The notes beneath the pieces are model-generated. The model made no database searches. It was not told the origin of the DNA and saw only the letters and a list, made by a program, of their open reading frames with translations. From IMG/VR virus record IMGVR_UViG_3300015603_000046, positions 1-30,261 of that record: 30,261 nucleotides of DNA, one strand, 5' to 3'. The position numbers were made by a program, and so were the translations under genes. Positions 3,526 to 30,261 of the stretch are shown here, piece by piece. Position 1 is the stretch's first letter. Each line of letters begins with the position of its first letter. Source of the stretch: a virus.

Positions 3526-5658
3526 ATGGCAATAAAAAAAGAACAACTAAAAGAAGCACAAGACGACTCAAAGTTGTTGTCTGAGCTTATCAACCATTAT
3601 AACGAAAGCGAAAAGTATATCGCTCAGATACGAGATAACGCCGACTTCACCTGGGATGATCGAGAGAATATGCTCGTTGGCGTACTCACTGATATCGGTT
3701 CAAAGACAACAAAGAGCAAAGTGAATACGCAAGACCTCGTGAACTTGATACTCGATGGAGCATCTCGTGTTATGGCTCAGTTTCCTACCGGTACCATTCA
3801 AGCAATCAATACAGAAGACGATAAAGGCAAAAACATTTTAATGAACTTGGTACATGAGAAATACATAGTACCTAATGCAGACTCACAATTTGATTTTCTT
3901 ACTAAACTTCGTATTTGGGACATTTATTCTCGTGTGTTTGGATCAATGCCAGCACTCGTAGATTATCGTGTTGATGATGACTATATCGGACCAGATATGT
4001 GGCTCATTCATCCTCGAAACTTCTTTCCTCAAGCAGGATGCACAAACATTAACTCAATGGATTATGCTCAGGTTTCTACTTGGGTGTCTGTTGAATATCT
4101 TAAAGGACGAGATAAAAAGGTTTGGAAGAACCTTCCGGAACTTATTAGGAAAGTAAAAGAAGGAGGAAAAACAAAGCAACAAATGGAGCAAAAACATTTG
4201 CCTGTCAATGAACGATTGAATTCAGTCTTTGCATCAGAAACAGGAGAATTTGCACAGTGTGAATTACTTACTGAATATAGAAAGAATCGTTGGATTACCT
4301 ATTCAAAAGAATACAATCTTGTTGCTCGTGATATGCCGAACCCACAAGATAACAACGAGCTTCCTATCGTGATGAAGCATTGTTTCCCTTTGATAGATCG
4401 CCTCTATGCACTCGCAGAATTTGAAAGAGGACATACATTACAGAAAGCGGCCAACTCGCTCGTCAATCTCTATTTTGAAGGAGTTCAGATGAGTATTTTC
4501 CCTCCGCTTATTCTTGACCAGAACGGCATTGTAGCATCGACCATTGAATACAAAGCCAAAGCAAAATGGATTCGTACAAAGGCAGGAGCTATCGAACAGA
4601 TGAAACTTTCTCCAGAAGGATTGAACACTTTCAACTCGACATACGGCTTCCTCAAGTCTCAGATGTTGAACCTCGGAGCGACTACTGATACGACAGTTTC
4701 AAAAGATACAGACCCTGGACAGGGAAAAACTCCTCAGGCTTTGAAGATGCAAGGAGCACGAGAGGGTGCTCGTGATAATTGGGATCGTTTCATGATGGAA
4801 CAGGCTCTTGAGCAAGTAAACCAGAAATTCATTGATCTCCTTTCAACCAAACAAGAGAAGCCTATCGACATTACTCTTTTCAAGTCAGACCTCAAGAAAC
4901 TTCAAGAAGCATATCCGGATGAAGACCTTTCTACTGTATTTGGACTTAAGGCATATACATCAGGAAACGCAGGGAAGTTGACCGTGGCTTCTGATACCTG
5001 GAAGGACGGCAAGAGCAACATAAAATTCAAGTACATCATCGATTCGGGCTCAACCATGAAGAAGGACGATGAAGAAGAACACGATGCTCTCGTAGAAATA
5101 ATGGCTTTGATTCTCAAATTTCCAGATGCTCTTCCTCAGATTACTCAGAAAGGGACATTTACCCTTGGAGATAAGACATTTAACTTCGGAGAGGCCATCA
5201 AGCGTTACATTATCACATCAGGCGTACAGGATTCCGAGAAAATCATCAGTGATAACAAAGACCAACAGGGACAGCCTGGAGCTCAAGATCAGAACGCCCA
5301 GAGCCAAGCACAGGTTCAGCAACTCACTCAACAAGTACAACAACTCATGCAAGGGATGCAACAGATGCAGGCCGAGATAGCAAAAAAGCCAGAGAAGAAA
5401 GTAGAGGACTCGATTTCCTATAAGGATGTTCCTGATGACGTGAAACGGCAGATAGAAGCGAAAGCAGGATTGACACCATCGAGTGAATTTTCAGTCGGAG
5501 AAGGGGAAGACCCTGTTCATAAAGCTATGAATCTTATACGAGGCTCAAGGGCGGTAGAAGAGCCAGTGCCAACGCTCAATCAAGAAGCTCCAAAGCCAGA
5601 TTTCGCTTCAATGCTAGGCGGAGCACCAAATAATTCACCTGCACCAGCAGGACAATAA
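3526..5658 (+). CDS. Portal protein
   Basis: The 710-residue product is probably the dodecameric portal through which DNA enters and leaves the head. It follows terL by 3 bases, the normal position, and has the size of podovirus-type portals. Visible features are a helical N-terminus, an alternating alpha/beta body with NSLVNLYFEGVQMSIFPPL near 325-345 and a C-terminal glutamine-rich coiled coil at about 587-625 (QQLTQQVQQLMQGMQQMQ), followed by a proline-rich tail. Glutamine-rich C-terminal helices resemble the barrel or crown extensions of some podovirus portals. The call rests mainly on position, length and general pattern, with no single diagnostic motif. Confidence 0.82.
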   Translation: MAIKKEQLKEAQDDSKLLSELINHYNESEKYIAQIRDNADFTWDDRENMLVGVLTDIGSKTTKSKVNTQDLVNLILDGASRVMAQFPTGTIQAINTEDDKGKNILMNLVHEKYIVPNADSQFDFLTKLRIWDIYSRVFGSMPALVDYRVDDDYIGPDMWLIHPRNFFPQAGCTNINSMDYAQVSTWVSVEYLKGRDKKVWKNLPELIRKVKEGGKTKQQMEQKHLPVNERLNSVFASETGEFAQCELLTEYRKNRWITYSKEYNLVARDMPNPQDNNELPIVMKHCFPLIDRLYALAEFERGHTLQKAANSLVNLYFEGVQMSIFPPLILDQNGIVASTIEYKAKAKWIRTKAGAIEQMKLSPEGLNTFNSTYGFLKSQMLNLGATTDTTVSKDTDPGQGKTPQALKMQGAREGARDNWDRFMMEQALEQVNQKFIDLLSTKQEKPIDITLFKSDLKKLQEAYPDEDLSTVFGLKAYTSGNAGKLTVASDTWKDGKSNIKFKYIIDSGSTMKKDDEEEHDALVEIMALILKFPDALPQITQKGTFTLGDKTFNFGEAIKRYIITSGVQDSEKIISDNKDQQGQPGAQDQNAQSQAQVQQLTQQVQQLMQGMQQMQAEIAKKPEKKVEDSISYKDVPDDVKRQIEAKAGLTPSSEFSVGEGEDPVHKAMNLIRGSRAVEEPVPTLNQEAPKPDFASMLGGAPNNSPAPAGQ

Positions 5659-27910: not shown

Positions 27911-27951
27911 ACTTTATATAAGAGAAGAAACGAAAAAAGACCCTTTCAAAA

Positions 27952-28038
27952 TCAATTCGGTGGAGGTGAGGAGGTTTGAACTCCTGCGACCGTAGGTTAT
28001 AAGTCATGGCGCGTACCATACCACCCCCACAGAATTGA
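27952..28038. ncRNA. Cloverleaf-like structured element, tRNA-like on minus strand
   Basis: The outer stem is long: TCAATTC (27952-27958) with GAATTGA (28032-28038), one mismatch, then GTGGAGGTG (27960-27968) with CACCCCCAC (28022-28030). On the minus strand 28028-27961 reads as tRNA-like: a 7-bp acceptor stem, a 4-bp D-like stem (ATGG/CCAT), a 5-bp T-stem (AGGAG/CTCCT) with the canonical T-loop TTCAAAC, discriminator A and CC. The anticodon arm is abnormal (weak stem, about 10-base loop) and the D-loop lacks GG. On the plus strand it lies between a promoter and a terminator. It may be a plus-strand RNA, an odd tRNA, or an attP with the 3' part of a host tRNA gene. Confidence 0.5.
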
Positions 28039-28058
28039 CCTCGATTGAGGTCTTTTTT
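28037..28058 (+). terminator. Intrinsic terminator
   Basis: GACCTC (28037-28042) and GAGGTC (28047-28052) form a 6-bp stem with a GATT loop, followed by six T (28053-28058). It shares two bases with the outer stem of the cloverleaf element, so the two folds are linked. It ends transcripts from the lysis genes and from the promoter at 27882. Confidence 0.75.
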
Positions 28059-28080
28059 ATTTGCAAAAATAAAACTCCCT

Positions 28081-28425: not shown

Positions 28426-29331
28426 ATGAAAGTTTTTGATGTAGTAACTGAATACATCTCTTGGAGGAATATAAACTCTCGATCGTCGACGGTCAGGGGG
28501 TATACTGTCGATATTAAAGGTTTTTGTCTCTATATGAGAAACATTGACATTGAAAAAGTAACTATTAAAAACATCATCGAGTACCTAGAACTTATGTCCT
28601 ATATGGGCTGGGCGAATAATACTATTTTCAGAAAAGCCGAATGTATAAAAGGATTCATCGAATATGCTCATTTAAACGGCTATTGCAAACTCAATCCTCT
28701 TCTCGTCCCTATACCAGAAAAAGAATTCAAAATCCCTCGTGTAGCAGATGATGAGAGTTACCGAGATTTTTTTAATGCTATCGGAACAGACCGAGATCCT
28801 AAGAACGTCAGGAACCGTGCACTCATTTCTCTTCTGTGGGATTCTGGTATGAGAATCGGTGAACTGCTCTCTATAGATGTTGATGATTTAGACCTTGAGA
28901 AAAATAAGGCATTGATACGAACCGAAAAGGCAAAGACGAAGCGACCGATTCGAGAAGTATTTTGGTCACAAGAAACAGGAAAACATATTAGGAAGTGGCT
29001 CGTCAGGAGAGAGAGTTTGCTTCTCAATTTCAGAAAGCTGAACGAAGAGTCAGTCTTCATTGCAGTCAACGGACAGAAACGTGGAGATCGCTTACACGTT
29101 AGTTCTCTTCGTGGGACATTCAATCTTCTTTCAGACAAAGCTGGACTCGAACCGAGACTCAACCCTCATTCTTTTCGACATCATATGGGAGTGAAACTTG
29201 CAAAACAAGGAGCAAATAATTCTATCATCTCAAACATTTTGGGGCATTCTGATTTGGGAAGCTCGTATGTCTACACAATGCTTTTTGATAAAAATCTTGA
29301 GGAAGAATACCATAAATTCAACAAGGGTTGA
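28426..29331 (+). CDS. int: Tyrosine recombinase (integrase)
   Basis: The 301-residue product is a tyrosine recombinase of the XerC/XerD size class. It has an N-terminal SAM-like DNA-binding domain (about 1-90; helices around YTVDIKGFCLYMRNID) and a C-terminal catalytic domain. The catalytic set is complete: R143 (SGMRIGELL), K168 (TEKAKTKR), H248 and R251 (PHSFRHHMG), H274 (LGHSDLG) and Y283 (YVYTM). It probably integrates and excises the phage chromosome; a Xer-like role in dimer resolution is less likely given the phage context and the att-like element upstream. A strong SD (GGAGGAG) lies 11 bases before the ATG but within a hairpin, suggesting control of translation. Confidence 0.92.
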   Translation: MKVFDVVTEYISWRNINSRSSTVRGYTVDIKGFCLYMRNIDIEKVTIKNIIEYLELMSYMGWANNTIFRKAECIKGFIEYAHLNGYCKLNPLLVPIPEKEFKIPRVADDESYRDFFNAIGTDRDPKNVRNRALISLLWDSGMRIGELLSIDVDDLDLEKNKALIRTEKAKTKRPIREVFWSQETGKHIRKWLVRRESLLLNFRKLNEESVFIAVNGQKRGDRLHVSSLRGTFNLLSDKAGLEPRLNPHSFRHHMGVKLAKQGANNSIISNILGHSDLGSSYVYTMLFDKNLEEEYHKFNKG

Positions 29332-29355
29332 CATTCGGACAATTAGGAGTAATAT
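29328..29355 (+). promoter_or_regulatory. Promoter/operator block 1, before the HTH gene
   Basis: TTGACA (29328-29333) is followed after 16 bases by TAATAT (29350-29355, 4 of 6). The spacer contains CGGACAATTAGGAGTA (29336-29351). The -35 overlaps the integrase stop codon. Transcription would start around 29361-29363, at the ATG of the HTH gene, so the message may be leaderless. Confidence 0.6.
29336..29351. repeat. Operator-like repeat, copy 1
   Basis: CGGACAATTAGGAGTA (29336-29351) matches copy 2 at 29577-29592 at 15 of 16 positions, and a shorter match CGGACAAAT is at 29542-29550 inside the end of the HTH gene. Both full copies fill the spacer of a promoter, the normal place for a repressor site. 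Confidence 0.65.
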
Positions 29356-29361
29356 AAAAAT

Positions 29362-29559
29362 ATGAAAACAAACAAACGACCAATGAGAAGACCATATAAG
29401 TATCCACCTGAGACTTTTTTTATTGCACGAAAATTAAAAGAAGAGGGGAAGAATAATACTGAGATAGGTAAGATTTTAGGAATACCGCACGAAAAGCAAG
29501 TGAGGCGTATTTTATTGTACCCGCTAGAAAAAATAACAAGTCGGACAAATGGTGCATAA
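29362..29559 (+). CDS. Small helix-turn-helix DNA-binding protein (65 aa)
   Basis: The protein starts very basic (MKTNKRPMRRPYKYP) and has a helix-turn-helix: first helix TFFIARKLKEEG, turn KNNT, second helix EIGKILGIP, then a recognition-like helix HEKQVRRILL. It resembles small HTH proteins of the resolvase or terminase HTH kind and could be a repressor, Cro-like protein or excisionase. It is placed directly after the integrase and flanked by two near-identical promoter spacers, so these are its likely binding sites. Its own promoter at 29328 would be autoregulated. The family is not certain. Confidence 0.62.
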   Translation: MKTNKRPMRRPYKYPPETFFIARKLKEEGKNNTEIGKILGIPHEKQVRRILLYPLEKITSRTNGA

Positions 29560-29567
29560 CTATATAC

Positions 29568-29596
29568 TTGACACATCGGACATTTAGGAGTACACT
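29568..29596 (+). promoter_or_regulatory. Promoter/operator block 2, after the HTH gene
   Basis: TTGACA (29568-29573) is followed after 17 bases by TACACT (29591-29596, 4 of 6). Its spacer holds CGGACATTTAGGAGTA (29577-29592), almost the same as in block 1. Transcription would start near 29603 and run into the leader described next. Confidence 0.62.
29577..29592. repeat. Operator-like repeat, copy 2
   Basis: CGGACATTTAGGAGTA, one mismatch from copy 1 at 29336-29351, in the same position relative to a TTGACA box (3-4 bases later). Confidence 0.65.
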
Positions 29597-29627
29597 TGTG
29601 ATATAGAACATTAAAAACATAAGAAAT

Positions 29628-29701
29628 CAACGAGGTGGACAAGTGCATCAAGTGGGATTAAATCGCTTGTCTACAGCCTAAATCAAATAGGAACCTCGTT
29701 G
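29628..29701 (+). promoter_or_regulatory. Attenuator-like leader with exclusive pairings
   Basis: Segment A, CAACGAGGT (29628-29636), is perfectly complementary to segment B, ACCTCGTTG (29693-29701). Segment B is also the first arm of the terminator at 29692-29717, whose second arm repeats segment A (AACGAGGT). So B can pair with A or with the terminator arm but not both. Inside, GACAAG (29638-29643 region) pairs with CTTGTC (29666-29671). Segment A carries the ribosome site (GAGGTGG) of a short reading frame. Confidence 0.6.
29643..29681 (+). CDS. Possible leader peptide (12 codons)
   Basis: A GTG at 29643 follows GAGGTGG (29632-29638) at close spacing and opens a 12-codon frame (MHQVGLNRLSTA) that ends TAA at 29679-29681, before the terminator. 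There is no run of one amino acid. A ribosome sitting on GAGGTGG would cover segment A and free segment B for the terminator, so translation of this frame would favour termination. Its expression is inference. Confidence 0.35.
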   Translation: MHQVGLNRLSTA

Positions 29702-29717
29702 AAAAACGAGGTTTTTT
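29692..29717 (+). terminator. Intrinsic terminator with GNRA loop
   Basis: AACCTCGTT (29692-29700) and AACGAGGTT (29705-29713) form a perfect 9-bp stem with a GAAA tetraloop; T runs from 29712 to 29717. It would end transcripts from the promoter at 29568 after about 115 bases. Confidence 0.8.
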
Positions 29718-29722
29718 CTTTA

Positions 29723-29761
29723 TTTCTGCTGAAGTATCCTATCTTTTTACTTCAGCAGAAA
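29723..29761. repeat. Perfect 14-bp inverted repeat
   Basis: TTTCTGCTGAAGTA (29723-29736) and TACTTCAGCAGAAA (29748-29761) are exact reverse complements separated by 11 bases. It starts 5 bases after the terminator T-run. With no T-run of its own it could be a protein-binding site, an RNA hairpin, or part of the terminator on readthrough. Confidence 0.6.
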
Positions 29762-29922
29762 CAAGTACAAAACCAGATAGAGCAAGATATATCTTTCGCT
29801 CGGAAGTCTCAAAGTAGTACTTAAAGTAAAAGAATCCGACTTCTAACAGGGTTCGTGAATAGCAGGTTGTGGCGGGTAGAGGGAGCGGTTATTCCTTCCT
29901 CCGCCATTACCTAACAAACCTT
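29762..29922. other. Leader region before the next gene, no gene seen
   Basis: It contains the palindrome AAGATATATCTT (near 29784), GAAGTC/GACTTC arms, and TGGCGG (29870-29875) with CCGCCA (29901-29906). No SD site or promoter is clear. The frame of the next gene could begin at a GTG (29869), but that start falls inside the TGGCGG/CCGCCA hairpin. Confidence 0.35.
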
Positions 29923-30165
29923 ATGGACATCTTTAATTCAATGGTGACACAGCTCAAGGACGACAAGCAGAAGACCAGAGAGACAACGGACTTACGCCGT
30001 CAGAACTTGGGAGACGTAATCGGATCGTGTGAAGACTTCGATGAATGGGCAGGGAAAGCCCTTCTAAGAGGAATCAAAGGCGACGAGATAAAGGAACTTT
30101 GGGACGAATACTGGTCGGATATCGTCGAAGAACAGAGAGAGAACGAGATGATGGATAACCTGTAA
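29923..30165 (+). CDS. Hypothetical acidic protein (80 aa)
   Basis: I chose ATG 29923 (MDIFNSMVTQLKDDKQKTRE); GTG 29869 would add 18 residues encoded by a hairpin. The product is acidic and helical (DVIGSCEDFDEWAGKALLRG, GDEIKELWDEYWSDIVEEQR). No family is recognised. It starts the block after the control region, where early phage genes are expected. Confidence 0.5.
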   Translation: MDIFNSMVTQLKDDKQKTRETTDLRRQNLGDVIGSCEDFDEWAGKALLRGIKGDEIKELWDEYWSDIVEEQRENEMMDNL

Positions 30166-30169
30166 AAGT

Positions 30170-30261
30170 ATGAAAACACAAAAAGAGTTGGTTATAGAAT
30201 ATGTCAAAACATTTGGAGAAATAGTTCCAGCAAAGATAGGCGGGAAACAATGGAATGGAGG
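30170..30261 (+). CDS. Hypothetical protein, 3' end outside window
   Basis: The ATG is 4 bases after the preceding stop. The visible 30 residues begin MKTQKELVIEYVKTFGEIVP, followed by AKIGGKQWNGG. The start is a helix followed by a turn, as in small winged-helix-like proteins; I recall similar openings in small phage proteins but cannot name a family from this fragment. Confidence 0.5.
   Translation, partial: MKTQKELVIEYVKTFGEIVPAKIGGKQWNG

Follow-up and report, generated by a model that had tools for sequence, protein, structure and literature searches.

A candidate bistable transcription attenuator in the leader beside the integrase gene of an uncultured phage

Can a short leader RNA of a phage decide on its own whether transcription proceeds into the next gene? 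This question is raised by an IMG/VR virus record of an uncultured phage. The window, i.e. the whole stretch of DNA that was analysed, comprises 30,261 bases. Its left part carries the TerS, TerL, portal and major head genes. At its right end the integrase is followed by a 65-aa ORF of helix-turn-helix (HTH)-like type, the leader discussed here, a further ORF of 80 aa and the start of an ORF which is cut by the contig end (Table 1). The phage is probably temperate. This right-end region had zero matches among 50,697 phage records, and domain and family profile searches found no family match for the 80-aa ORF.

Table 1. Features at the right end of the phage window.
Feature	Position	Strand	Basis or remark
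Tyrosine integrase gene	28426..29331	+	Pfam Phage_integrase 1e-28; PHROG 3.8e-39
P1, promoter-like, TTGACA-N16-TAATAT, 5' of HTH-like ORF	29328..29355	+	consensus scan, 10/12 matches
65-aa ORF, helix-turn-helix-like (P0002)	29362..29559	+	HTH_28 match, E 0.05, weak, below cut-off
P2, promoter-like, TTGACA-N17-TACACT, 5' of leader	29568..29596	+	consensus scan, 10/12 matches
Box TCGGACATTTAGGAGTA within P2	29576..29592	+	direct repeat, 16/17 identical to copy at 29335-29351 within P1
Segment A, 5' strand of antiterminator helix, includes SD-like GAGGT	29627..29636	+	direct reading, stem list
Central hairpin, 9-11 bp, two G-U pairs	29637..29672	+	folding; adjoins A:B in antiterminator fold
GTG frame, 12 codons, VHQVGLNRLSTA and stop	29643..29681	+	ORF reading; chance test
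Small hairpin CCUA-N7-UAGG, third junction arm	29677..29691	+	folding
Intrinsic terminator: B, second AACGAGGT copy and U tract	29689..29717	+	terminator scan
Segment B, strand common to antiterminator and terminator	29693..29702	+	folding, stem list
Further strongly structured leader, four hairpins, about 200 bases, from terminator to next gene	29720..29922	unsettled	z -5.0 plus, -4.8 minus
80-aa ORF, first gene 3' of leader	29923..30165	+	98 aa with GTG start at 29869

The leader lies behind P2, the second of two promoter-like sites which flank the HTH-like ORF 3' of the integrase. Seven promoter-like sites were found in the region against 4.3 expected, and P2 taken alone is weak evidence. 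P1 and P2 have a 17-bp box in common, TCGGACAWTTAGGAGTA, a repeat that had escaped the initial annotation. A search allowing up to 3 mismatches returned no third copy in the window. Judging from the sequence the box is a probable operator. Because P1 and P2 share it, it is reasonable to propose that a single repressor controls both the HTH-like ORF and the leader transcript; the HTH-like ORF itself is a possible regulator of both sites. As a separate observation, several related phages carry a DnaA-box-like motif, TTATCCACA, shortly 5' of TTGACA promoters (L215 at both promoters, L217, L167 at 9990, L172 at 2905 and 9495 (minus), L042 and L060 at about 2303). TTGAC followed within 30 bases 3' of 9 out of 51 copies of TTATCCACA, as compared to 2/51 for its reverse complement and 1/57 for four control 9-mers. 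The motif may link phage promoters to host DnaA.

What does the leader contain? Segment A reads CAACGAGGT at 29628-29636; with U29627 added its complement to segment B reaches 10 nt. The A:B helix has 10 perfect Watson-Crick pairs, UCAACGAGGU (29627-29636) with ACCUCGUUGA (29693-29702). Since AACGAGGT is present twice, at 29629-29636 and 29705-29712, B is complementary to two leader sites, 29627-29636 upstream and 29705-29713 downstream. The initial annotation had noticed that A and the second terminator arm carry the same sequence and that both are complementary to B; its coordinates were correct and the pairing is slightly longer. It had also noticed a GAGGTGG 5' of the GTG frame, which we read at 29632-29638. 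The terminator stem consists of 12 pairs (29689-29700/29705-29716) with a 4-nt loop and is followed by the U tract. Two terminator-like sites were detected in 28500-30261, the second being the reverse complement of the first. Two additional elements had been missed, a central stem of 11 pairs (29635-29645/29664-29674) and a small 4-bp hairpin (29677-29680/29688-29691). In folding, A:B, the central hairpin and the small hairpin form a three-way junction which is closed by A:B. The RNA 29603-29730 folded at -33.0 kcal/mol (z -4.1) and 0 of 200 shuffles were as stable.

The initial claim of mutually exclusive stems was borne out by folding: the antiterminator and terminator helices share B. Switching was modelled by folding successive prefixes from 29603, a procedure which represents equilibrium folding, not kinetics. 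The central stem formed first, followed by the A:B junction at a probability of about 1.0 once B was exposed and up to an exposed end of 29710. An abrupt change from A:B to the terminator occurred at exposed ends of about 29710-29713, coinciding with the point where the terminator hairpin must form. RNA polymerase covers roughly the last 8 or 9 RNA bases at release. Therefore, the exposed end at release is placed near 29709-29711, where with free A the antiterminator A:B still had a probability of 0.75-1.00. A ribosome footprint on the GTG reversed the outcome at these same ends (terminator, 0.90-1.00), and masking of A alone gave a terminator probability of 0.99 at exposed end 29709. A modelled ribosome at the stop codon resulted in an intermediate state. 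The A:B fold was calculated at -27.0 kcal/mol versus -29.5 for stem plus terminator, a gap of about 2.5 kcal/mol, and in the terminated RNA the terminator form prevailed (about 0.7). Direct reading and folding models thus demonstrate two competing helices of near-equal predicted stability. That transcription starts at P2 and ends at the terminator, and that any input regulates it, we infer.

In trp-type attenuators and in ON riboswitches such as the adenine pbuE leader an upstream segment pairs with the 5' arm of the terminator, and the two helices exclude each other. The present leader follows the same logic with an upstream segment competing for the terminator 5' arm. As in trp/his-type attenuators, antiterminator and terminator are mutually exclusive on one common strand; as in ON riboswitches, the competing fold is closed by the shared strand, here as a three-way junction. 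Unlike these systems the leader has no known aptamer (Rfam), no regulatory codons and no conserved family; it adjoins a phage integrase and the gene downstream is without a family match. Its position fits a regulatory leader: promoter-like P2, which has its box in common with P1, lies on the 5' side and a same-strand gene on the 3' side. With moderate confidence we propose that the leader of the P2 transcript is a cis-acting bistable transcription attenuator, i.e. a terminator/antiterminator pair, with readthrough as the default. A would pair with B as the RNA leaves the polymerase. Together with the central and small hairpins this would create the three-way junction, which would withhold B from the terminator and by default let a substantial share of transcription continue through the structured leader into the gene at 29923. 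If A were occupied or removed, whether by a ribosome starting translation, by a protein or by antisense RNA, B would be freed, the terminator would form and transcription would stop near 29718.

Which of these inputs might operate? The initial annotation had proposed that translation of the leader would free B and favour termination. The direction of this logic was right because masking A gives the terminator and free A the antiterminator. Translation as the input fared less well. Ribosomes initiating on the 12-codon frame would cover A and cause termination, and poor initiation would result in readthrough; we consider this clearly unlikely. The SD-like GAGGTGG is located a few bases 5' of the GTG, and placing a ribosome on the start codon in the model drives the RNA into the terminator form. 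Yet, an SD-like 4-mer with a start codon and a frame of 8 or more codons arose in 512 of 3000 shuffles (17%). This puts SD and frame at chance level and leaves the leader-peptide reading unsupported. Further, SD and GTG are partly paired within the central stem, VHQVGLNRLSTA has no run of regulatory codons of the trp/his type, and an SD is missing from most genes of this phage. The frame is probably fortuitous. Its translation is one possible input to the attenuator; nothing in the sequence singles the frame out. That a phage early operon is gated by the translation state of the host is a guess.

Does such a competitor arise by chance? The 86 nt upstream of the terminator were dinucleotide-shuffled (n = 3000). 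A Watson-Crick complement to the terminator 5' arm of at least 9 bases was obtained in 4/3000 shuffles and of at least 8 bases in 15/3000; 10 were observed. Among 130 terminators in 1.3 Mb of loci only two, those in the window and in L124, had at least 10 complementary bases. We then scored 218 terminator-like sites of the window and its TerL relatives by energy. The window ranked seventh, and only in the window and in L124 was a terminator classed as strong (-13 kcal/mol or lower) opposed by an upstream competitor of more than 10 kcal/mol. The switch architecture is thus probably beyond coincidence, although odds of one in several hundred fall short of overwhelming when the best finding of a scan is what gets reported.

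Using blastn, the leader matched nothing credible in phage and plasmid collections and no homologous leader in the records of relatives, and a single-sequence structure model run against 1.17 Mb of loci scored significantly only on the window itself; the collections used may omit very near records of this phage. In IMG/VR the exact A-B-T arm pattern had 5 unrelated, GC-rich matches and the exact box pattern 36 matches in unrelated, mostly coding contexts; single queries with the integrase and the downstream ORF had none. Rfam gave zero matches on the window at gathering score and low-score matches only at relaxed E. Based on Rfam and a tRNA search, the leader was judged to be neither a tRNA nor a member of a known RNA family. 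No host genome was found in genome contigs via TerL or integrase alignment. A promoter-like match in L051 was discarded since it sits within coding sequence on the opposite strand. A search with TerL recovered more than 80 viral contigs. The TerL relatives share little with the window beyond TerL and TerS, and an integrase of the window type was not found in them. Therefore, they are no test of leader conservation.

The searches yielded only two close integrase relatives, L218 and L219 (41-42% identity). Their layout is integrase, a promoter with a 35-bp repeat, an HTH-like ORF and a second promoter with the repeat at 89%. The repeat differs in sequence from the box of the window. In L219 the ORF at the position of the 65-aa HTH-like ORF has weak HTH matches; the L218 contig stops at the second promoter. 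Because L218 and L219 share the layout in spite of a different repeat, the integrase-promoter-HTH module is a recurring arrangement. The leader behind the second promoter of L219, about 200 bases, has a different fold without a strong forward terminator, and the RNA model of the window finds no match in it. Thus, over this distance at least, the switch does not belong to the constant components of the module. At present it is known from one sequence, with no covariation and no sign of selection.

Accordingly, an ordinary terminator has to be weighed, with the second arm copy as a chance match or the relic of a duplicated terminator. Evidence of conservation is lacking, the related module in L219 is without the element, and one-in-several-hundred matches are expected when many windows are read. 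On the other hand, the perfect 10-bp match directly adjoins a strong hairpin and is at most about 60 nt away from a strong terminator; the probability of this is in the order of 1e-3 per terminator. We regard an ordinary terminator as rather unlikely.

Equally doubtful in our view is a 115-nt small RNA gene, 29603-29717, which would end at an ordinary terminator, use A:B in its three-way-junction fold and feed the next gene by some readthrough as in the IsrK locus. IsrK of Gifsy-1 acts in trans on the translation of its own readthrough transcript (PMC4825925). IsrK and the leader resemble each other in the prophage promoter, in a short RNA that is structured and carries a terminator, in alternative structures and in readthrough to short ORFs further 3'; a sequence similarity was not found. 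Expectedly for such a gene, the RNA is compact, structured and bounded by a promoter-like site and a terminator, and other compact structured RNAs ending in U tracts are present in TerL-related phages. Yet neither a homologue nor a candidate target was found, and the terminator form, not the junction, dominates the terminated RNA.

The compact RNAs of phages with a related TerL have two interleaved long stems (pseudoknots) and end in or beside U tracts: L124 9284-9385, L140 13080-13170, L060 2357-2470, L078 from 6819 (minus), L054 8450-8545, L135 3037-3140, L207 from 6431 (minus) and L089 at about 5040-5160. Some are behind promoter-like sequence, some directly 5' of scaffold or capsid genes. 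Interleaved stem pairs numbered 24 compared to 8.5 in Markov-shuffled sequence.

Could the attenuator be operated in trans? In the immunity of satellite phage P4, with seqA, CI RNA and seqC, the outcome is premature termination (PMC4825925). By analogy, a leader RNA containing B would pair with A of new transcripts, cause termination and keep the prophage silent. The arrangement A-B-T, in which B is complementary to the copy on either side, is reminiscent of seqA-CI-seqC, and the leader adjoins the integrase of a probably temperate phage. Here, however, B has its downstream partner in the terminator arm, only a few bases away, and B and T together are the terminator. A separate processed B RNA is not evident, B pairs with T in the terminated RNA, and a trans-acting RNA is only hypothetical. 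We rate this mechanism as very improbable. Slighter still is the likelihood of a new class of small elements, riboswitch-like or protein-binding, in phages of uncultured bacteria, with the three-way junction acting as sensor and A:B being stabilised or opened to choose between early expression and silence.

Two further structured elements were observed. The stretch 29720-29922 holds a perfect 14-bp inverted repeat (29723-29736/29748-29761). Its z-scores are similar on both strands, and it may continue the leader structure or represent a DNA site, for example an origin or an attachment site. Between the late genes and the integrase, 27912-28062 is a structured noncoding element (z -6.9 minus, -4.1 plus) with a terminator, 28037-28058, at its edge. 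Its minus strand folds tRNA-like with a very long acceptor stem; neither ARAGORN nor Rfam made a call. An attachment site or a tRNA-like RNA is possible.

The kind of mechanism proposed here, a bistable attenuator, is well known; this instance is new. As a single strand exchange converts one state into the other, the switch is easy to test in vitro. If real, it would place a compact RNA-based decision element immediately 3' of a promoter and beside an integrase, and attenuation control would become known from a phage lineage whose regulation is almost undescribed.
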